Source of the DNA: a virus
IMG/VR virus record: IMGVR_UViG_3300046163_000030
Location: 1 to 20,964 of that record
Length of the DNA: 20,964 bases
Direction: 5' to 3' (one strand)
Shown here in pieces: positions 3,953 to 18,228 of the stretch. The notes beneath the pieces are model-generated. The model saw only the letters and a program-made list of their open reading frames with translations, searched no databases and had not been told where the DNA came from. Every line of letters begins with the position of its first letter. Within the stretch, counting starts at the first letter, position 1. The position numbers were made by a program, and so were the translations under genes.

Positions 3953-4688
3953 TTATCACCTCTTCAAAATCTTCTAGTCTTACCATGTTAGGTCCATCAC
4001 TTGGTGCGTTATCTGGGTCAGGATGAACTTCTAAGAAAAAGTTGCTAACTCCCAAAGCAGCCGCAGCACGAGCAAGACCTGGAACGTAGTCACGATTACC
4101 ACCAGACGAGTTGCCGAGGCCTCCAGGCTGCTGACACGAGTGGGTCGCATCAAATACGATCGGTACATTATAGTTATCAAGCATGTACTGAAGGCCATTA
4201 AAATCGACCACAAGATTGTTATATCCAAAACTAGCTCCTCTTTCAGTTATCCATACTTCTTTAGCATCTTCGCATTTACTTAAGATTCCTGCGATGTCCC
4301 AAGGAGCAAGGAATTGTCCTTTCTTAATATTGACAATGCAATCAGTCATGCACGCCGTTTCAATTAAATCAGTTTGTCTAGATAAAAAAGCTGGTATTTG
4401 TAGAACATCTACCACTCTATGGCAACTAGATATTTGACCTTCCGTATGCACGTCAGTTAAAATCTTTAAGTTAATTATCTGTTTTTTCATACGCAAGAAA
4501 TCGTTAATTGTACGATTCTGGCCTACGCCTCTAAAGCCACTTGCGTGGCTTCTATTGGCTTTATCAAAACTTGCTTTAAAGTAATATTCCATATCGTACT
4601 TAGAACATACGTCTGCGCAGTGATTAGCGATCTCTAAGGATTGCTCGTATGATTCATGCTGGCAAGGCCCTGCAATTATTTTAATCAT
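3915..4688 (-). CDS. kdsA: KDO-8-phosphate synthase, metal-dependent type
   Basis: The enzyme condenses phosphoenolpyruvate with arabinose-5-phosphate to KDO-8-phosphate. All family blocks are present in order: IIAGPCQHES, YYFKASFDKANRS, FRGVG, LKILTDVHTEGQ, DVLQIPAFLSRQTDLI, NIKKGQFLAPWD, ITERGASFGYNNLVVDF, FDATHSCQQPGG and LEVHPDPDNAPSDGPNM. Cys9, His183, Glu220 and Asp231 match the metal ligands of the metal-dependent class (Cys11, His185, Glu222, Asp233 in the Aquifex enzyme as I recall it). In the metal-independent E. coli type the Cys is Asn. The chosen start at 4688 (MIKIIAGPC) has GGAG upstream and gives 257 residues. The longer frame from 4751 has no family support. It overlaps kdsB, so the pair should be co-translated. 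KdsC and KdsD functions are not in the window and may come from the host. Confidence 0.93.
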   Translation of the reverse strand: MIKIIAGPCQHESYEQSLEIANHCADVCSKYDMEYYFKASFDKANRSHASGFRGVGQNRTINDFLRMKKQIINLKILTDVHTEGQISSCHRVVDVLQIPAFLSRQTDLIETACMTDCIVNIKKGQFLAPWDIAGILSKCEDAKEVWITERGASFGYNNLVVDFNGLQYMLDNYNVPIVFDATHSCQQPGGLGNSSGGNRDYVPGLARAAAALGVSNFFLEVHPDPDNAPSDGPNMVRLEDFEEVINDIDRYSYTGSL

Positions 4689-4974
4689 GCTCTCCACCAC
4701 GTCCGCGGCCAAGATTTGTAAAATATTCAGGTTTACGTTTAGCAGTTTCAAATGTAGCTACTGTTACTACGATAGCAGCTAGCAGCAACATATGCAAAAC
4801 GGCACTTATACCAAAGGCCACCCAGCTACCTGCGATAATACCAAACACAATACACCACATCCAAGCCAGTATTTGCATGATCATATGTCGTGTAGCCAAG
4901 TCATTAATATTTTTCAAGGGATTTTTATCCATACACATTACTGTATCCCAACAGTCTTTCACCCAATATTTCAT
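4681..4974 (-). CDS. Small membrane protein, two predicted helices
   Basis: The protein of about 97 residues starts MKYWVKDCWDTVMCMDKNPL and carries two hydrophobic stretches (MQILAWMWCIVFGIIAGSWV and HMLLLAAIVVTVATF), followed by a polar, Gly/Arg-rich C-terminus (NLGRGRGGEHD). It most likely sits in the inner membrane as a hairpin. I chose the ATG at 4974 because the small upstream gene ends one base before it (TAATATG). The ATG at 5016 would overlap that gene fully. It overlaps the first bases of kdsA and so belongs to the same operon. The function is unknown. A role in delivering the KDO product to the envelope would be speculation. Confidence 0.75.
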   Translation of the reverse strand: MKYWVKDCWDTVMCMDKNPLKNINDLATRHMIMQILAWMWCIVFGIIAGSWVAFGISAVLHMLLLAAIVVTVATFETAKRKPEYFTNLGRGRGGEHD

Positions 4975-4975
4975 A

Positions 4976-5080
4976 TTATACATCCAATAGTTCTTTGATT
5001 CGTTTGTGAGCAGCATTTAGTTGCTCTTGTAAATACTTAACGTTGTCTCTTAATATTTTTATTTCTTCATCCTTCGTCAT
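4976..5080 (-). CDS. 34-residue coiled-coil peptide
   Basis: The short frame encodes MTKDEEIKILRDNVKYLQ followed by EQLNAAHKRIKELLDV and a TAA. Hydrophobic residues fall at heptad spacing (I, L, V, L, L, A, I, L), as expected for a short amphipathic or coiled-coil helix. Its ATG overlaps the end of the Nmad1-like gene, and its stop lies one base before the ATG of the membrane-protein gene. It therefore fills the only gap in this operon exactly. That packing, more than the sequence itself, supports a real gene. The function is unknown. Confidence 0.6.
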   Translation of the reverse strand: MTKDEEIKILRDNVKYLQEQLNAAHKRIKELLDV

Positions 5081-7241: not shown

Positions 7242-7453
7242 TAGTATATTTTCCTTACTTGATAATTAAATTGATCAGTAGTTTTAATGTTAATTTTATG
7301 ACCCTTCATGTCTCTGCCTTTAAGAGATGTTTGGTCAATCTTACTTAGTTCTGATAGTTCAAAAAACTGTGTTCTCTTAGTACCATCATTTTCATTGTAC
7401 CATATTGTGACTTCGTATTTGTCATACAAAAGTCTTTTTAGCCAGTTTGTCAT
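7241..7453 (-). CDS. Small hypothetical protein downstream of DNA polymerase
   Basis: The 70-residue protein (MTNWLKRLLYDKYEVTIWYN at the start) looks like a small beta-rich protein with alternating charged and aromatic residues (RTQFFELSEL, INIKTTDQFNYQV). It has no membrane segment or motif I recognise. Its ATG overlaps the polymerase stop (ATGA), and its stop overlaps the MazG-like ATG (TAATG), so it is tightly coupled within the polymerase operon. It is real by packing. Function unknown. Confidence 0.75.
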   Translation of the reverse strand: MTNWLKRLLYDKYEVTIWYNENDGTKRTQFFELSELSKIDQTSLKGRDMKGHKINIKTTDQFNYQVRKIY

Positions 7454-9962
7454 ACAAAGAAATCCTCCAACGTGTTTGAGTTATCATAATTAATAAACCA
7501 ACCAGTCGGATCTAGAATCGGTTTGAGCGGGTCGCTAAACGTTTTAGAAAACTGTAAGTCGTAATCCACAAATTTCTCTAGTCCAAATTCTTTTGGCAAA
7601 TAGTCTGGAAAGGCAATGACATTCTCATGAATCGGATTAGGAGTCTTGAGATAGCAAAACTTTATCTTCTCGCCATTCTGAATCTTGGCATATTTCTTAT
7701 GCAAATTATATTTATCAATAAGACCATTATACAACAAACTGCCACGAATGTGAATAGGCGTTCCCTTTTTATATGCGATTTTTTCACCTTTTTTTGTTGC
7801 CCACTTAGTTACTTCACGGGCACCACGTGGAAAAGATATATTTTCAGGAGGAAGAGAACGAAACTCATTATAGAAATTTGTAATAAAGTCTTGCGTGTCA
7901 TTTTCGTTACCGCTAATAATAATCTTAAACGCTTGCTTAAATTTATCGCGTACTACTTCTGGAGTCGAAGACTTAATAGCTTCAATGCCCATAATCTTAA
8001 GTTTTGGCTCAGCATATTGAACGCCTTCGGAATTATGAACGTTTAAGATATAGCGTTTCTTTGCTGTCCATATACCACGATCGGCAATAACTTCTCGGCC
8101 CATTTCCATGCGAGGTTTGTATGCGTTCATCTTGTCAAATAGTTTAGCATACGATTTACTCAACACCTTTTCAAAATGATCTGAGCAGATCTGATCAAGA
8201 AACTTAACAGGATCTTTTGGCTTAAATTTATTTACCAGATCGCCCATGTTAATATACAAAGAATCAGTATCGATAGCGATAACATAGTCAACATTATCAG
8301 TCTTGAGTACATTGTTCATCTCCTCATTAACGGCTTTTTCAGCCCATAGTACAGAAAGTTGGCCAGATAAAGTAATACCCTCTGCCATACGCATATCAAA
8401 ATATCTGAAATATTTGTTACCGAGTGCGCCATAGAGAGAATTTAGTAGAATCTTAATAGCCATTTGACGATTGTTATATCGGTTGATTTCTCGCTCTAGT
8501 TCAACGGTTTTGTTTTTCTGGTACTTTTGCTCAACGCTAAGCATTTCTTTTTTGATCTGACTGCGCTCTGAGTAATAGGCCTCAATAATTTTAGGCAAAA
8601 TACCTTGGAATTCTTTATGATAAGTTGAGCCATTGGCTGCCACCGAATGTTGGGATGAAACCTTATTGTCTAGCTCAAGATAATAATCAACACCAGACCG
8701 CTCTGTTTGACCTATAAGCGTCTCTGGTGACATATTGTATTGTACAATCAGGTTTGGATACAGAGAATTAAGATCGAAGGATACGACCCAGTCATGTAGA
8801 CCAACTTGAGGTTCTTTTACATAACCGCCAGGATATGGGTTTTTAATCTTTTCATTGTTAGGCGGAATTGCAATCTTTTTCTTATTTAGCTCGCGATAGA
8901 TAATAGAATCCCATATAGCCGTAGTGCCAAAGGTGTCGGCAAGATTAACACCACCACGATAAGCCATAGTCTGTGCTAGCTGAATAAGACCCATCTTCTC
9001 TTCGATGCGATTAACCAGCTGAACGTCTTTGATGTTATAGTCTATAAACTTTTGATGATCTTCTTTATACAAGGTATATAGATTGCCATGTTCTTCGTAA
9101 GATAACTTCTTTTCACCGAGAACAACGTGAGCAATGTGATCAAGCTTGTATGATTCTTGTGTGCCATATGAATAACCAAATTTCTTAAATAGTTCGAGAT
9201 AGTCGGCCTGTTGTATGCCAACAATTTCATAGCCGTATTGAGTACGGCCTGTGATTTCTGTATTACGTTCGTTTACCATATTCCATGGTGACAAGCGTTT
9301 TACCGCTTCAATAGTTCCAATGCGTGCGATACGATTGATGAGATAAGGAATATCGAAAAAGCGACTGTTCCAGCCGGTAACAATATCTGGCCGGTTATCA
9401 CACCAAAACTTGTGGAAACTGGCTAACAACGCTTCTTCACTATCAAACTTACGATATTGAATAAGGTCGCCATGCATTTCAATGGAGCATTTTTCATAGT
9501 CGTAATCTCCTAAGCCCCAGACGTGATAGATTGAAGGACTGACTAGATTTTAGAGCAATAGAAATAATCGGCTGAATTGCTTCTTCTGGTTTTGGAAAGC
9601 CATCGTCAGACATAACCTCAATATCAAAATTAACGATATTAACTTGATTTGTATGGAACTTAATTTCATCTGGATACATGTCTGTAATACATTGCTGAAT
9701 GTAATTTGTGTTACCATAGACTTTAATCTGATCGACGTCTTTGTATTGATCGATAAAATTCTTAGCATCTCTCATTGTAGAAAACCCTATAGGGCTCAAC
9801 TGGAGCTCCATCAGAGGCAAGCCACTTCGGTTTTTTATTTTTGCTTGGAATGAAAAGGGTGGGCGCAAACTTTATTTTCTTTTCGACACGTACGCCATGG
9901 TCGTTATAGCCGCAATATAGGATCTGAGTCCCATAGCGATTGACTGATGTATAGAATGACAA
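7450..9962 (-). CDS. 43: Family B DNA polymerase (T4 gp43-like), two frameshifts
   Basis: This is the replicative polymerase with 3'-5' proofreading; after correction it has about 837 residues, somewhat shorter than T4 gp43 (898). The N-terminus is MSFYTSVNRYGTQILYCGYN. Exonuclease motif I is VNIVNFDIEVMSDDG and motif II lies around GWNSRFFDIPYLINR. Polymerase motif A is SFDLNSLYPNLI, motif B KILLNSLYGALGN and motif C IAIDTDSLYI. The frame breaks twice. A CCC at 9791-9793 seems one base too long (VEPIGFSTMRDAKNF is then restored), and about one extra base near 9540 separates the exonuclease start from YHVWGLGDYDYEKCS. Downstream of 9477 the frame is intact. The gene has its own promoter at 9987-10015 and follows a strong terminator. 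Its stop overlaps the next ATG. Confidence 0.95.
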
Positions 9963-10016: not shown

Positions 10017-10037
10017 AAAAAAAGGCGCCGAAGCGCC
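10017..10037 (-). terminator. Intrinsic terminator with UUCG loop
   Basis: On the minus strand GGCGC-TTCG-GCGCC is followed by seven T (10023-10017). This is a classic Rho-independent terminator with the stable UUCG tetraloop, 12 bases after the stop of the last gene in the Hsp20-pseudoazurin unit. On the plus strand the same hairpin is followed by AATTTG and a T run, so weak bidirectional action is possible, but no plus-strand gene needs it. Confidence 0.9.
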
Positions 10038-10048
10038 AATTTGTTTTT

Positions 10049-10270
10049 TTATTCTCCTAATCCTAAACAAGGAATAAGGATGGATTGTTTACAATTATCT
10101 GGATAAGCAATCGCTGATCCAAGAATAGGCATTCCAACCATACCAATAATAATAATTAGGAATGCCCAGCCAAGACCTTTTGTAGTACAATAATTATGAT
10201 GAGGTTCCTCAGTCATTTTCATAAAATCTCCTGCTGTGGTAAATTTTAAGTCTTGCATTTCATTATTCAT
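10049..10270 (-). CDS. Small single-span membrane protein
   Basis: The 73-residue protein has a polar N-terminus (MNNEMQDLKFTTAGDFMKMT, then EEPHHNYC), one hydrophobic helix (GWAFLIIIIGMVGMPILGSA) and a short tail with two Cys (DNCKQSILIPCLGLG). The N-terminal HHNYC could bind metal or haem, but this is only suggestive. Its ATG overlaps the stop of the DoxX-like gene (ATGA) behind a GAGAGGAAA ribosome binding site. It is last in the unit before the terminator. Being coupled to a DoxX-like protein and a pseudoazurin suggests a membrane redox partner. Function unknown. Confidence 0.7.
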   Translation of the reverse strand: MNNEMQDLKFTTAGDFMKMTEEPHHNYCTTKGLGWAFLIIIIGMVGMPILGSAIAYPDNCKQSILIPCLGLGE

Positions 10271-10674
10271 GTTCTATTTCCTCTCAATGCAAAATACATT
10301 CCGCCAACCCAAAGTAGTACATGCAGATTGTCATACCATAAGACATCCCAGAAGCTTTCGGGTTCGCCTGTCCATATAACACCTGTCATAATACTGGCAA
10401 TAGTAATACCACTGAAACGTGTGATAATATCGCCAAACTCTTTCGTGCGCTTAGTGTAGTCTGCTATACCACCGACCAATAAGCCAGCGGCCGCCCCAAG
10501 CTCTCCAAATACAACAAACGACCAAACTAATAGTGTAAGTTCTACTGGAGAGTCTTCAAGGTTGATTGGCCACTTATTCATTCCTTGTTGAAAAAACACA
10601 ACAATGATTGGAATGCGTAGTAGCCAATGAGTCATACAGAACTCTGGGATTTTGTTTACAAAGTTTCTAAACAT
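10267..10674 (-). CDS. DoxX-like four-helix membrane protein
   Basis: The 135-residue protein has four hydrophobic segments: LLRIPIIVVFFQQGMNKW, LLVWSFVVFGELGAAAGLLV, FSGITIASIMTGVIW and LHVLLWVGGMYFAL. The pattern, with QQGMNKW after helix 1 and GELGAAAGLL in helix 2, fits the DoxX family (R-x-x-x-G-x-x-F-x-x-x-G, then E-x-x-x-G). DoxX was named for a subunit of the archaeal terminal quinol oxidase and related thiosulfate:quinone oxidoreductase; most bacterial members have unclear roles in redox balance. It starts three bases after the pseudoazurin stop and overlaps the next gene. The pair suggests electron transfer between a quinone-linked membrane protein and a periplasmic copper carrier, which is inference. 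Confidence 0.75.
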   Translation of the reverse strand: MFRNFVNKIPEFCMTHWLLRIPIIVVFFQQGMNKWPINLEDSPVELTLLVWSFVVFGELGAAAGLLVGGIADYTKRTKEFGDIITRFSGITIASIMTGVIWTGEPESFWDVLWYDNLHVLLWVGGMYFALRGNRT

Positions 10675-10677
10675 AAC

Positions 10678-11109
10678 CTAGAGCTCTTTCAAAAGGGCTT
10701 TCAGTTTCTTCTTTGACTTACCTTTTACTTTGGCTTTGGACACATCATTGTCTCCATCACCTACAACTACAATACCAATCATGCCCATTGATTTGTGCGG
10801 GGAACATTGATATACGTAGACGCCTGGTGTGTCAAATGTCATTTCAACTTCTTTGTTGAGCTTTGACTTACGTGGTGCATCCCAACCATCTGGCCCAGCA
10901 ATGAATTCAACATTGTGGCCTTTTGCTGTTGGCACCCAAGTAATAGTATCGCCAATATCAATACGTGCGATGTCTTCTGAGTAAACCATCTTAGCGCCAT
11001 CGTCACGTTTATTTAACATTTCGATAGTCATATTTTCTGCTAATGCAGCTTTTGCCCCAAAGGCAATAACTAAAAACAGACCTGCTACTAATAAAATATC
11101 CTTTTTCAT
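10678..11109 (-). CDS. Pseudoazurin (type 1 copper electron carrier)
   Basis: A periplasmic blue-copper protein of 143 residues. It starts with a signal peptide (MKKDILLVAGLFLVIAFGAK, then AALA before EN; cleavage expected after Ala24). The mature domain has the pseudoazurin pattern: TIEMLNKRDDGAKMVYSED, IDIGDTITWVP, GHNVEFI (His65), TPGVYVYQCSPHKSMGMIG (Cys102, His105, Met110) and VVVGDG. All four copper ligands (His, Cys, His, Met) are present with normal spacing. The C-terminus is a Lys-rich tail (KAKVKGKSKKKLKALLKEL). Cellular pseudoazurins carry electrons from the bc1 complex to nitrite or nitrous oxide reductases and other acceptors. The start at 11109 is chosen because GAGAGG lies six bases upstream; the ATG at 11115 leaves no room for one. 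An intact copper site implies selection for function. Confidence 0.92.
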   Translation of the reverse strand: MKKDILLVAGLFLVIAFGAKAALAENMTIEMLNKRDDGAKMVYSEDIARIDIGDTITWVPTAKGHNVEFIAGPDGWDAPRKSKLNKEVEMTFDTPGVYVYQCSPHKSMGMIGIVVVGDGDNDVSKAKVKGKSKKKLKALLKEL

Positions 11110-11127
11110 AATCATCCTCTCATTAGA

Positions 11128-11358
11128 TTATTTCTTTTCAGAAACAAACTCATACAATTTTTCAGCTTGCGCTTTAATTTCTTCTGGAGTAATTGCTTTG
11201 GGAATATACTTTTCATACGCTTCCCTCATCTGATCAGCATTTTCCTTATGCATGTCCATCATCTGGTGTGCTAGGTTAATCTGATTTTCATATGCTTTGT
11301 CAAGCATATCTTTTGCCATGTTCAATACGTCATAGCGGATTTGGAATGGATTTGACAT
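11128..11358 (-). CDS. Small helical hypothetical protein
   Basis: The 76-residue protein (MSNPFQIRYDVLNMAKDMLD at the start) is predicted fully helical, with many Met, Glu and Lys, and ends KAQAEKLYEFVSEKK. Similar short proteins occur in marine T4-like phages as I recall, without known function. It has AGGAG before the ATG. The preceding spacer is a CA-rich simple repeat (11363-11382 on the minus strand), probably only an unstructured leader. It lies in the Hsp20-pseudoazurin unit. Confidence 0.75.
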   Translation of the reverse strand: MSNPFQIRYDVLNMAKDMLDKAYENQINLAHQMMDMHKENADQMREAYEKYIPKAITPEEIKAQAEKLYEFVSEKK

Positions 11359-11385: not shown

Positions 11386-11586
11386 TTAACTAAAATGTCT
11401 TTCTAACATTTCAATTCTGTCTGTAGCCATAGCCATCTTGTCTAGTTCTTCTTGAATTGCTTCGACAATATCGCTATGTTCACCAATGCCTACACTCTGA
11501 TTCATGTAGACCATAATATTTGTTTTTGCACGTTCTAGTTCACCTTCGGCATGCATACGTGCTGCTTTTACAAGTTGTTCTTTCAT
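11386..11586 (-). CDS. Small helical hypothetical protein
   Basis: The 66-residue protein starts MKEQLVKAARMHAEGELERA and contains VGIGEHSDIVEAIQEELDKM. It is predicted helical, acidic and cytosolic. The pattern (GIGEHSDI followed by an E-rich helix) resembles conserved small proteins of marine T4-like phages, but I know no function. I chose the ATG at 11586 because AGGAG lies just upstream. The longer frame to 11613 would pass through that site. Confidence 0.75.
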   Translation of the reverse strand: MKEQLVKAARMHAEGELERAKTNIMVYMNQSVGIGEHSDIVEAIQEELDKMAMATDRIEMLERHFS

Positions 11587-11603
11587 AATATCTCCTAGGG
11601 GTA

Positions 11604-11624
11604 AGAGGGCCATTACAGCCCTCT
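11604..11624 (-). other. RNA hairpin between two small genes
   Basis: AGAGGGC and GCCCTCT form a perfect 7-bp stem with a 7-base loop in the gap between the stop at 11630 and the ribosome binding site of the next gene. There is no U run after it on the minus strand, so it is unlikely to be an intrinsic terminator. It may be a processing or stability element that sets relative expression within the unit. Confidence 0.55.
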
Positions 11625-11629
11625 ATAAG

Positions 11630-11803
11630 TTAGTTACGCAATTTGGCAACTTCCATCATGCACGCTTTGCTCTCCTCGTGGTATCCCAATCGGGCCAGCT
11701 CTGCCGCCGCTTTGGAATATCCCACAACTTGGATCGTACGATCTAGTGAAGACCACAAACCCGATAAGGGCGAGAATATAGTAGACATTACTGCTGTTGT
11801 CAT
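11630..11803 (-). CDS. Small hypothetical protein coupled to the DUF1127 gene
   Basis: The 57-residue protein (MTTAVMSTIFSPLSGLWSSL, then DRTIQVVGYSKAAAELARLG) has a hydrophobic N-terminal third and a helical end (YHEESKACMMEVAKLRN). SKAAAELARLGYHEES recalls the short helical repeat style of DUF1127-type proteins, but I cannot assign it to that family. The ATG at 11803 is chosen because it makes a TAATG junction with the DUF1127 stop and has GGATGG upstream. An ATG nine bases earlier is possible. Function unknown. Confidence 0.65.
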   Translation of the reverse strand: MTTAVMSTIFSPLSGLWSSLDRTIQVVGYSKAAAELARLGYHEESKACMMEVAKLRN

Positions 11804-12057
11804 TAAACCCATCCTTGCAAATTTTGATTTACTTTGACGTGTTCAATAGACGATTTATACCTAGCGATCTCATAGATCTCGCCGCGGCTAATGCCAATGT
11901 CTGCTAAGTCATAATCAGATAGATTGCTTAGAGCTTTTTCAGTTTCACGAATTGCTTTACGTTCAATTCGATTATTGTAAATGCTTTTTAGCGCTTCAAT
12001 AATTAGTTCAACTGCCCTTGTTGAGTAGCTGTGTGCTGTTAGTATTGCTTGTGTCAT
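11803..12057 (-). CDS. DUF1127-family small protein
   Basis: The 84-residue protein (MTQAILTAHSYSTRAVELII at the start) carries a C-terminal DUF1127 core: an Arg/Lys-rich helix (NRIERKAIRETEKALSNLSD), then YDLADIGISRGEIYEIA. This Leu-x-x-Asp-x-x-Leu-x-Asp-hGh-xRxxI pattern is typical. In Proteobacteria, small DUF1127 (YjiS-like) proteins are reported to influence RNA turnover and phosphate or stress responses, acting as short Arg-rich RNA-related proteins. Finding one on a phage suggests manipulation of host RNA metabolism, which is inference. The start at 12057 is supported by GAGG upstream. The gene overlaps the end of hsp20 by about 50 bases. Confidence 0.8.
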   Translation of the reverse strand: MTQAILTAHSYSTRAVELIIEALKSIYNNRIERKAIRETEKALSNLSDYDLADIGISRGEIYEIARYKSSIEHVKVNQNLQGWV

Positions 12058-12481
12058 GTTCGACCTCGTTAAATTTTCCAATTGTAATTTTACGAGGACG
12101 CTGATCTTCTGGGATAACATATTGCAATTCAATTGCCAAAATGCCATCTTGAATATCTGCTCCGTTTACGTGTACGTGTTCGGACAGCCTAAAGGTACGC
12201 TTAAATTTCTTTGTCGAAATGCCACGATGGATAAACTCTCTACCTTTAGAGACGTGCTCTCCCTTTACTGTCAAAGTCCTATCTTTAACTTCGATATTAA
12301 TTTCATCTTTTGTAAACCCAGCAATAGCCAATTCAATCAGATAATCTGTCTCTGTGGCTCTAATAATATTGTGAGGGGGATAGTGGTCTTGAGCATGTTT
12401 TGCAGTGAACTCTAGTTCATTAAAAAGATGATCGAAACCCACAAAAGATGACCGCGGGAAAAGTGTTTGTAAGCCTGTCAT
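12008..12481 (-). CDS. hsp20: Small heat-shock protein Hsp20 (alpha-crystallin domain)
   Basis: This is an ATP-independent chaperone that holds unfolding proteins. The 157-residue protein begins MTGLQTLFPRSSFVGFDHLF. It has an alpha-crystallin domain from about residue 38: NIIRATETDYLIELAIAGFT, INIEVKDRTLTVKGEH, FIHRGISTKKFKRTFRL, VHVNGADIQDGILAIEL, then PRKITIGK. The usual A-x-x-x-n-G-v-L motif appears as GADIQDGILAIEL. Hsp20 is a frequent accessory gene of marine T4-like phages, thought to aid capsid or tail folding. The ATG at 12481 is clear: AAGGAG stands eight bases ahead. The gene follows an overlapping early/late promoter pair and opens the unit that ends at the terminator at 10017. 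Confidence 0.93.
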   Translation of the reverse strand: MTGLQTLFPRSSFVGFDHLFNELEFTAKHAQDHYPPHNIIRATETDYLIELAIAGFTKDEINIEVKDRTLTVKGEHVSKGREFIHRGISTKKFKRTFRLSEHVHVNGADIQDGILAIELQYVIPEDQRPRKITIGKFNEVEHDTSNTNSTQLLNKGS

Positions 12482-12518
12482 TGTTATCTCCTTTTGAGCA
12501 AGCAAGATTAGTATGGGC

Positions 12519-12539: not shown

Positions 12540-12547
12540 TATTTATA
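12540..12547 (-). promoter_or_regulatory. T4-type late promoter (TATAAATA) of hsp20
   Basis: A perfect TATAAATA, the T4 late -10 consensus recognised by gp55-RNA polymerase, lies about 60 bases upstream of the hsp20 ATG in a true intergenic gap. The window encodes gp55 itself. Transcription would start near 12533 and cover Hsp20 to the small membrane protein. Confidence 0.7.
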
Positions 12548-14577: not shown

Positions 14578-15518
14578 TAGTTAAACTCTACGTTTGCCAT
14601 AATTTCTGTCATACATGCTACAACGTTTAATTCATGATCTGCAACAAAAGCATGCTTATATTGATAGTCAGCCAGGATTAAAACTAGCTGAGGTATTGAT
14701 CTATTTTCTACAGTTTCAGTCATACTATCGTATAAACCACGAATATAGTTGAAGCATCTACGTCCATATTATTAGCGACCCAGTGCCTCATTTTCTTGAA
14801 GTCTTTTTCTTTTAGATGCTTGGAGAGAGCACCAACGGAAGTAAGGCCATTACTATTATCATTACCATTAATGCCGCTATCACTAAACCCACCTCTTTGT
14901 CCTTCATTTAACACCCTCCTCCAGTCTGGTGCATATTTCATAACAAGATTTGCCGCTGCGTTTTTTTCAAACGGAACGTTTTCCTGATCTAGTATATATA
15001 TAAATCGTTTAAAAAATTGTGCTGCTAGCTCGGCCATTCCTTTCTTCGTAGTGTTAAATTCGTATACACCACAACGAGAATGGAGTGGCTCGATAATACG
15101 GTTTTTAAAATTACAAGTAAGGATAAACCGGCAGTTATTGCTAAACTCTTCAATGAAGCCGCGAATGCGCAGGTTGTGTTGATTGTGGGTTTAGATAGTC
15201 TGCCTCGTCTAAGTATTACAACTTTAAAGCCGCCTTGTAAAGAAACAGCTGACGCAAATTGTTTTATTTTACCGCGAAGTGTATCTATGTTGCCTTCTTC
15301 TGACCCGTTGATTACAATGATAGTCTAGGCCTAGTTCGTTGCATAGCGCTTTCGCAACTGTGGTCTTACCTAAGACCGGCAGTACCGGTGAAAAGCATGT
15401 TAGGCAATTCACCGGTATCCGCCATTTTCTGAAACGTCATCTTTTAGTCGGGGAGGCAAAATTGTTTCAGAAATTGCTTTTGGCCGATATTTCTCGACCC
15501 ATAAAAATTCGTTGACAT
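14577..15518 (-). CDS. 44: Clamp loader ATPase gp44, heavily frameshifted
   Basis: AAA+ ATPase that opens and loads the gp45 clamp. Corrected length is about 314 residues (T4: 319). The rebuilt order is MSTNFLWVEKYRPKAISETI, LPNMLFTGTAGLGKTTVAKA (Walker A), VINGSEEGNIDTLRGKIKQF, KVVILDEADYL (Walker B, DEAD), PALRGFIEEFSNNCRFILTC (sensor 1 and arginine-finger region) and IIEPLHSRCGVYEF. An intact C-terminal stretch runs from about 15165 to 14745. At least eight single-base indels are needed, near 15505, 15435, 15371, 15320, 15210, 15166 and 14740, among others. Several are an extra A, others a T missing from a T run. No natural gene could work this way, so sequencing error is by far the best explanation. 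The true stop at 14577-14579 gives TAATG with the next gene. Confidence 0.9.
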
Positions 15519-16494: not shown

Positions 16495-16523
16495 ATTATA
16501 CCACATTTTCCAGTGTTTGTAAA
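16495..16523 (-). promoter_or_regulatory. Sliding clamp promoter (TTTACA-N17-TATAAT)
   Basis: TTTACA (16523-16518), 17 bases and TATAAT (16500-16495), preceded by TGG (extended -10), lie just upstream of gp45. The -10 box overlaps the gp46 stop codon TAA at 16498-16496, so promoter and gene end share bases. It allows high clamp expression separate from the recombination genes. Confidence 0.75.
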
Positions 16524-18228
16524 TCTTTTATTTTGCTGAAATTCTTTTCTTTCACAAATTCTATCTTATCTTTAAATTTACCGTCAAGAATATCGCCTTT
16601 ATGTGATATAATAAACGTATTAGAATTCTCATCAAGAGAATGCAGAATCTTCATTAGGTTCTCAACACCATCATGATCTAAGCTTGAATCAAATGTTTCA
16701 TCAAGTAAGAGAAGATTTGTTGATATTGAGTTTTTCATTTTAGCAATCATTCTCCAAGTAAAGAGAAGCGCTAAATCAATACGTTGTTTCTCACCTTCTG
16801 AAAAAGAGTCATATGAAAACTGATCTCTATGGCGTGAGCGAATAGTTTCAGTAAAGCTTTCATCTAAGTCAAAGTGAACGTAAAAATCTAATATTTGGAG
16901 ATATTTGTTTACTAGTTTATTAATGACAGGAATGTATTGCTTAATAATCTTTGTCTTGATACCGGTGTCTTTAAGCATCTCTGACATAACATTATTATAT
17001 GCATATTCATCATTTAACTGAAACTTAGACATATTAAACTCATTAGCAGCATTTTGCAAAGCTTCTAATTCGTCTTTAGCTGCTTCAATATCACCAGTTT
17101 GATTTAATTCTGTCTCCAAATTTCGTATTTCGTTTTGGATCCTGGTGATTGCCTGATTGTTAGAATGAATGTCTGACTGCTTCGATCGCACTCCAGTGAG
17201 TTCATCTGTGATCCGGTCAATATTTGTTTGAATATCAGTCGACTTTTCAAAGGCATGGTCCATAGCTTCTTTAAGCTCTTTAGCTTTAGCTTTGGAATCA
17301 GCCAGCTTCGATGATCTGAGTTCATTACTAATATCTTGGCTGCACGTTGGACACGTCTCGTTATCTTCATAGAATTTCGAGTCTTTGACAACTTGGGACA
17401 TTTGCTGCCTGAACTGCCCTTGGTATTGGACAATCGATTGACGCTTGTCATGAACCTTGTTGAGTTCTTCTTCAAGTGGCTTTTGTCTTTCTTCAACTTC
17501 TTGCGATAGAGCTTCGCTTTTCATCCTGTAAATCCTTCAACCTCAGAATTTAATTCTTTAATACGAGAATCTTTTTTTTCTTTTTCAGAGTTGTTTAACG
17601 CTTTAATATCTGAGATATATTTTTTCTGCGTAGTAATTTTATTTGTTTCAACGTCAAGACTTAAAGGACAGATCTTTCATTTTATCTTTTAACGTAGTAG
17701 TCTTTTCTTTTAAGAGGCTATTCATTTTTGAGAACACGTTAATGTCCAGAAGATCTTCGATAACATCTCTCCGGTGCTGCGCAGGGAGCTGCATGAAAGG
17801 AACAACGATGACGAGCCCAGAACAACTATCTGGTGAAAGCTTTTATGATTAAGTTTCAGGATGTTTTGCTCGAGGATCTTCTGGTACTCTTTGGAATGAG
17901 ATGATTGATTAATCATATCACCATTCTTCCAAATCTCAAATACGTTAGGCTTAATGCCACGTACAATTTTGTATTGTGCTTTACCTATTACAAACTTTAC
18001 TTCAACAACACAATTCTTATTATTAATTGTGTTGACTAGCTGTGGTTTATTAATGTTGCGGTGTGGCTTACCAAATAGACCAAATGCAATAGCATCTAGC
18101 ATGGTAGATTTACCAGCACCGTTCTGGCCTACAATTAATGTAGACTTAGATTTATCTAGTTTAATATCAGTCCAAGTATTTCCGGTTGATAGGAAATTCT
18201 TAAACTTTAACGATGTAAATACGATCAT
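16496..18228 (-). CDS. 46: Recombination nuclease ATPase gp46 (Rad50-like), frameshifted
   Basis: The Rad50/SbcC-type SMC ATPase works with gp47 in DNA end resection for recombination-dependent replication. Order: MIVFTSLKFKNFLSTGNTWT, Walker A LIVGQNGAGKSTMLDAIAFG, Q-loop region FHQIVVLGSSS, then VPFMQLPAQHRRDVIEDLLD in a shifted frame. A coiled coil follows, with the zinc hook CPTC in NETCPTCSQDIS, then a second coil, the signature SFSEGEKQRIDLALLF, Walker B LLLDETFDSSLD and the His switch FIISHKGD. Three indels separate the parts, near 17803, 17665 and 17526. From 17524 to 16496 the frame is clean (342 residues). Corrected length is about 576 residues (T4: 560). The ATG overlaps the gp47 stop (ATGA). 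Two promoter candidates inside gp47 could also express it. Confidence 0.94.

Follow-up and report, generated by a model that had tools for sequence, protein, structure and literature searches.

Why would a T4-like phage carry a gene for a pseudoazurin next to one for a DoxX-like membrane protein? Cyanophages keep photosynthesis running with electron carriers of their own. For the locus studied here, located in a stretch of 20,964 nucleotides of IMG/VR virus record IMGVR_UViG_3300046163_000030 (the window), an initial annotation proposed that the pseudoazurin-like gene (paz), the doxX-like gene and a gene for a small Cys-containing membrane protein form an electron-transfer module keeping host respiration or nitrogen-oxide reduction running during infection. 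Our comparison of viral and cellular sequences supports a phage-origin, multi-gene module resembling an electron-transfer system that recurs across many viral contigs and of which the window carries the paz-doxX-small gene version (Table 1). The main new fact is that phages related to the one studied here have, beside paz, a gene whose product is homologous to aa3-type cytochrome c oxidase subunit IV.

Table 1. Features of the paz locus and its surroundings in the window.
Feature	Position	Strand	Remarks
Two-TM protein, family 4	4681-5016	-	C-terminal GR..GGEHD; 5.7 kb from paz
gp43 family-B DNA polymerase, C-terminal part	7450-9477	-	N-terminus frameshifted; T4-like marker flanking the module
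Bidirectional intrinsic terminator-like hairpin	10024-10037	.	GGCGC stem and T tracts
Small single-TM protein	10049-10270	-	73 aa; three Cys, YCTT..(TM)..C..PC pattern; overlaps the end of doxX
DoxX-family membrane protein	10267-10674	-	135 aa; about four predicted TM helices
Pseudoazurin-like type 1 copper protein (paz)	10678-11115	-	145 aa; Sec signal peptide; Lys-rich C-terminal helix
Conserved phage protein directly upstream of paz	11128-11358	-	
PHROG 1811 protein	11386-11613	-	Upstream of paz, same gene run
DUF1127 protein	11803-12147	-	Frame overlaps hsp20; start uncertain
Hsp20 small heat-shock protein	12008-12505	-	First gene after the late-promoter-like octamer
TATAAATA, T4-late-promoter-like octamer	12540-12547	-	Upstream of hsp20, ~1.4 kb from paz

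The product of paz is predicted to be an intact, Sec-exported, pseudoazurin-like cupredoxin with a full copper site. Its signal peptide is of the Sec type, with the cleavage site placed by eye between ..AALA and EN. The protein matches Pfam Copper-bind (E 1.5e-16), and NCBIfam TIGR02375 (pseudoazurin) is its best model by far (3.1e-29), with a score of 101.1 bits that lies ~9 bits below the curated cut-off of 109.85. The plastocyanin model TIGR02656 reaches 3.8e-10 and 40.1 bits, below its cut-off of 87.85, so that paz does not qualify as a plastocyanin, and PHROG 515 (petE) is matched at E 3e-7 only. The closest PDB matches are pseudoazurins as well (7e-25), and the first 27 PDB fold matches of an AlphaFold model (pLDDT 79) are all pseudoazurins, ahead of any plastocyanin, with a TM score (target) of ~0.8 against pseudoazurin structures. 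Aligned to 1bqk, residues H67, C104, H107 and M112 correspond to H40, C78, H81 and M86 of Achromobacter pseudoazurin, and these four copper ligands are invariant in 76 of 76 distinct viral homologues, bearing out the initial annotation of a pseudoazurin with a signal peptide and all four type 1 ligands.

With the pseudoazurins of Achromobacter cycloclastes (1BQK) and Paracoccus pantotrophus (1ADW), the phage protein shares the fold, Sec export, the His/Cys/His/Met site and a C-terminal helical tail, and it is ~42% identical to the nearest solved pseudoazurins. Unlike known pseudoazurins, it is phage-encoded, falls slightly under the NCBIfam equivalog cut-off and groups mainly with viral sequences in the tree. 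Cyanophage plastocyanin is likewise a phage-borne small blue copper carrier and would be the photosynthetic counterpart of the role proposed here, but it belongs to another cupredoxin family that serves photosynthesis in cyanobacteria and, to our knowledge, has no adjoining oxidase subunit. We also observed that the mature part of paz in the window is close to that of related loci L016 and L020 while its signal peptide is unrelated to theirs and common to L001 instead, as if the signal and mature parts were recombining separately.

The three genes of the unit run head to tail on the minus strand from 11115 to 10049, followed by the hairpin. The DoxX protein of the window alone matches Pfam DoxX (PF07681) at E 0.019 and 16 bits, below the cut-off of 23.6, and 16 of the 17 aligned viral members do so at E<=0.1 (best 2.7e-8), which establishes membership at the level of the family and agrees with the DoxX-like neighbour described previously. 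The viral proteins resemble the DoxX family in this profile match of nearly all members and in their helical membrane character, yet form a distinct subfamily, at the base of which relatives from marine Alphaproteobacteria appear to lie. Residues H16, R20, E58, D115 and H118 are invariant in the aligned viral members; an AlphaFold model predicts helices at a pLDDT of 57, too poor to use. The small protein has, as annotated, one predicted TM segment and three Cys, and the latter are kept in most relatives. It has no family match over the cut-off in Pfam or NCBIfam, and PDB searches with it and with family 4 gave no meaningful match. The terminator reported after the unit is present as a bidirectional stem with T tracts, though a terminator scan of the window gave a number of matches at chance level.

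The T4 late promoter assigned to the unit fared less well: the octamer TATAAATA does exist, but it precedes hsp20 rather than the paz unit, and the three octamers of this type on the minus strand of the window, with 1.8 expected, are not above chance. The paz unit could be the tail of a late operon led by hsp20. Genes resembling regA, gp62, gp44, gp45, gp46, gp47 and gp55 (named by sequence resemblance) surround it. Since gp43 is frameshifted in the window, whereas L016 and L020, the closest contigs, have it intact (836 aa), indel errors in the assembly of the window are likely; gp43 (7450-9962) and the gp46-like (16496-18228), gp44-like (14720-15412) and dCMP-deaminase-like (1456-1767) genes are apparently split across frames. 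The paz, doxX and small genes are intact despite these frameshifts elsewhere. Between 2337 and 4751, the window encodes KdsA-like (DAHP synthetase family) and CTP-transferase (KdsB-like) proteins, a cupin and a small nucleotidyltransferase, possibly for phage modification of host KDO/lipopolysaccharide synthesis, and a periplasmic binding protein resembling the BMP family recurs upstream of the module in L164, L181 and L199. Family 4 adjoins paz in many related phages and is also found in OM43 phage Melnitz, weakly in C48C1, and in cellular Alphaproteobacteria; its presence in Melnitz and in cells means that it is not specific to the module. Cellular family 4 relatives in L405 and L407 lie near FolE-, BLUF- and fasciclin-like genes, a possible light or oxidative-stress cluster.

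The gene order hsp20-(DUF1127)-..-paz-doxX(-small-gp43) is common to L012, L016 and L020 and agrees with that of the window; as these contigs are independent, a chimeric origin of the locus is ruled out. In IMG/VR, at least 286 stretches carry close relatives of paz, at least 373 of doxX and at least 386 of the subunit IV homologue, all of them lower bounds, since the sets of related loci comprise the best 80 and their diversity is biased toward close relatives. Neither paz nor doxX has relatives among 50,697 annotated phage genomes, and no cultured phage was found to carry paz, doxX or subunit IV, with family 4 alone occurring there. When the neighbours of paz and doxX were clustered, three companions recurred: family 4, the small Cys protein and family 3, whose members are ~70 aa long with a single TM segment.

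Members of family 3 are homologous to subunit IV of aa3-type cytochrome c oxidase (Pfam COX4_pro_2, PF07835): 15 of 16 match this model at E<=0.1 and the best, at 3.6e-6, exceeds the curated cut-off; of three members considered individually, two exceed it. A profile built from the viral proteins only found one match each in 20 of 149 genomes of the Rhodobacteraceae group, all 20 of them canonical subunit IV proteins with an EKTF.GF-type motif and including that of a MED-G08 metagenome-assembled genome (MAG; Pfam 4.8e-11). The only PDB match of the viral protein is a weak one to a chain of Paracoccus cytochrome c oxidase (1qle_D, E 1.6). The phage form is thus like the alphaproteobacterial aa3 subunit IV in its TF.GF/EKTF.GF-type motif, its TM helix and the reciprocal profile matches, but it is without the N-terminal HKHG.MD and extends at its C-terminus by a further ~30 residues, which bear a conserved CN.GV. 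No match to the subunit IV gene was found in the window, whose record covers only part of a larger genome, and several other paz/doxX clusters have none within the stretch covered. In three contigs with gp43 93-94% identical to that of the window (L029, L031 and L067), subunit IV, the small gene, family 4, doxX and paz all lie between hsp20 and gp43, and L052 (gp43 95% identical) has the same five-gene run, cut at its start.

The COX4_pro_2 match to the viral proteins spans the TM segment and the TF.GF motif only and is followed by an invariant Cys in a lipobox-like context (VASC/VVGC), so that, judging by this motif, maturation could yield a lipoprotein instead. Such a context would suit a scenario without respiratory electron transfer, in which paz acts as a buffer for copper in the periplasm, or the membrane proteins have another part in infection, for example in superinfection exclusion, and the resemblance of a phage lipoprotein to subunit IV goes no further than a TM motif; the presence of family 4 in phages without pseudoazurin points the same way. 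We consider this very improbable, given that every cellular match to the viral profile (20 of 20) is a genuine subunit IV and that a carrier with a single copper is a poor copper store.

The subunit IV homologue and paz are closely linked. Within 3 kb on the same strand, paz is found in 72 of 75 contigs when starting from doxX and in 61 of 73 when starting from subunit IV alone, while starting from paz detects subunit IV in 58 of 69 and doxX in 56 of 70, compared with 14 of 54 for hsp20 and 10 of 50 for gp43 as controls; these counts include near-duplicate contigs, and grouping leaves 52 clusters. The small gene is co-localised with paz in 57 of 70 contigs. Gene order varies among the 52 clusters, which argues that the genes are linked by function and not just by common descent. 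Several loci have no space between subunit IV and paz, or between paz and doxX: the two genes touch or share a few bases. Both paz and DoxX are under purifying selection, with median dN/dS of 0.13 and 0.12, respectively; the median is 0.22 in subunit IV and reaches 0.34 in the small protein.

A phage homologue of an aa3 subunit beside paz favours a rewiring of aerobic respiration over nitrogen-oxide reduction. We propose, with a probability of roughly 0.55, that the genes form a respiratory module of T4-like marine phages in which electrons pass from bc1 via pseudoazurin to aa3, with subunit IV included in most relatives. During infection, a phage-encoded copper carrier that contains no iron would be exported to the periplasm and may there accept electrons from the bc1 complex or from periplasmic dehydrogenases and deliver them to the aa3-type cytochrome c oxidase of the host. 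In relatives encoding subunit IV, the phage subunit would join the oxidase or replace its host equivalent, and its ~30-residue C-terminal tail, predicted to lie in the periplasm, may assist docking of the carrier or lend stability to the oxidase. In the membrane, DoxX and the small protein might be partners in quinone or thiol redox chemistry or in assembly. The net effect would be to sustain respiration and proton-motive force with no need to make new heme proteins.

Pseudoazurin is the classic partner of NirK and NosZ, and paz could supply electrons to these nitrogen-oxide reductases or to another periplasmic enzyme such as sulfite dehydrogenase. The SAR11 locus L099 (4381-6381) has, as judged by eye, a host pseudoazurin gene related to paz directly behind genes for a sulfite-oxidase-like protein and for a cytochrome c of small size, which hints at a part in sulfite oxidation. 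For the phage module we find such a role quite unlikely, as the linked phage gene is a homologue of an aerobic oxidase subunit. By eye, no nitrogen-oxide reductase was seen in the window or near the module, and c-type cytochromes, searched for in 16 large viral records, had no match above the cut-off. Of the reading originally proposed, we retain the phage origin, the intact copper site and the multi-gene module, with aerobic respiration as the favoured process, and found nothing for its nitrogen-oxide branch.

The module might also protect the envelope from redox or (photo-)oxidative stress, with DoxX and the small protein keeping thiols or quinones reduced and paz serving as an electron sink or source. 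Mycobacterial DoxX proteins are part of an oxidative-stress membrane complex, Hsp20 is encoded upstream of the paz unit, and cellular relatives of the viral DoxX have suggestive neighbours by eye: an adjoining gene resembling type II NADH dehydrogenase (NDH-2) in L239 and L240, a CDGSH-like protein in L292 and photolyase-like genes in L292 and L295. The neighbourhood in L295 belongs to a more distant DoxX branch, however, and the recurring subunit IV homologue would be left unexplained, so we regard this function as improbable.

The proposed respiratory module could, finally, act with the opposite sign and throttle or redirect respiration, the phage subunit IV competing with that of the host and paz draining the cytochrome c route, which predicts lower oxidase activity or reactive oxygen and not more ATP. 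Phage homologues of subunits of host complexes can act as inhibitors, and the absence of HKHG.MD from the phage subunit and its new C-terminal tail would fit such an activity. An inhibitor needs no working pseudoazurin, though, and the retention of every copper ligand and the purifying selection on the carrier suggest active transfer, which makes throttling unlikely.

In a quick pseudoazurin tree, based on a short alignment and with many open forks, most viral sequences form a broad group beside marine Rhodobacteraceae, with Ascidiaceihabitans and Planktomarina as neighbours and a MED-G08 copy inside the viral group. Marine alphaproteobacterial copies likewise lie at the base of the viral group in the DoxX tree, not firmly resolved. 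In the MED-G08 MAG, 8 kb separate paz from doxX on a single contig, and the MAG also encodes a small-protein homologue lacking the Cys. Taken together, the trees and the MED-G08 genes suggest exchange with that lineage and make marine Rhodobacteraceae the likeliest hosts; the host is thus probably a marine alphaproteobacterium of the Rhodobacteraceae type. The phage-like pseudoazurin and DoxX genes of this MAG (L290, 635-1060 and 8878-9306) may reflect phage-to-host transfer. In the cellular loci that we examined, doxX is not beside pseudoazurin. Two phage-looking contigs with paz, binned with a Muricauda MAG (L084) and with Rhodobacteraceae Water_Bin34 (L088), are probably binning errors or come from infected cells. 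The phage with the gp43 closest to that of the window is C48C1 (61%). An origin from pelagiphages is not favoured, given that a paper on pelagimyophages (PMC7029224) does not mention copper proteins and that GC content is 37% in the window versus 29-30% in two SAR11 loci. In the SAR11 loci L142, L144 and L146, hsp20 adjoins the host pseudoazurin, as it lies near paz in phages.

In open-access full texts (subscription papers and preprints being outside the scope of our search), we found no paper on a phage pseudoazurin or a phage aa3 subunit. The pairing of a carrier with a relative of an oxidase subunit suggests that marine T4-like viruses rewire host respiration during infection, and a soluble carrier together with an accessory oxidase subunit makes for a directly testable system. 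We see about even chances that a large and widespread group of marine T4-like phages infecting heterotrophic Alphaproteobacteria remodels aerobic electron transport with its own carrier and oxidase subunit. If true, the main energy chain of marine bacteria that do not photosynthesise would be subject to rewiring by phages, and the module would be to respiration what the corresponding cyanophage genes are to photosynthesis.
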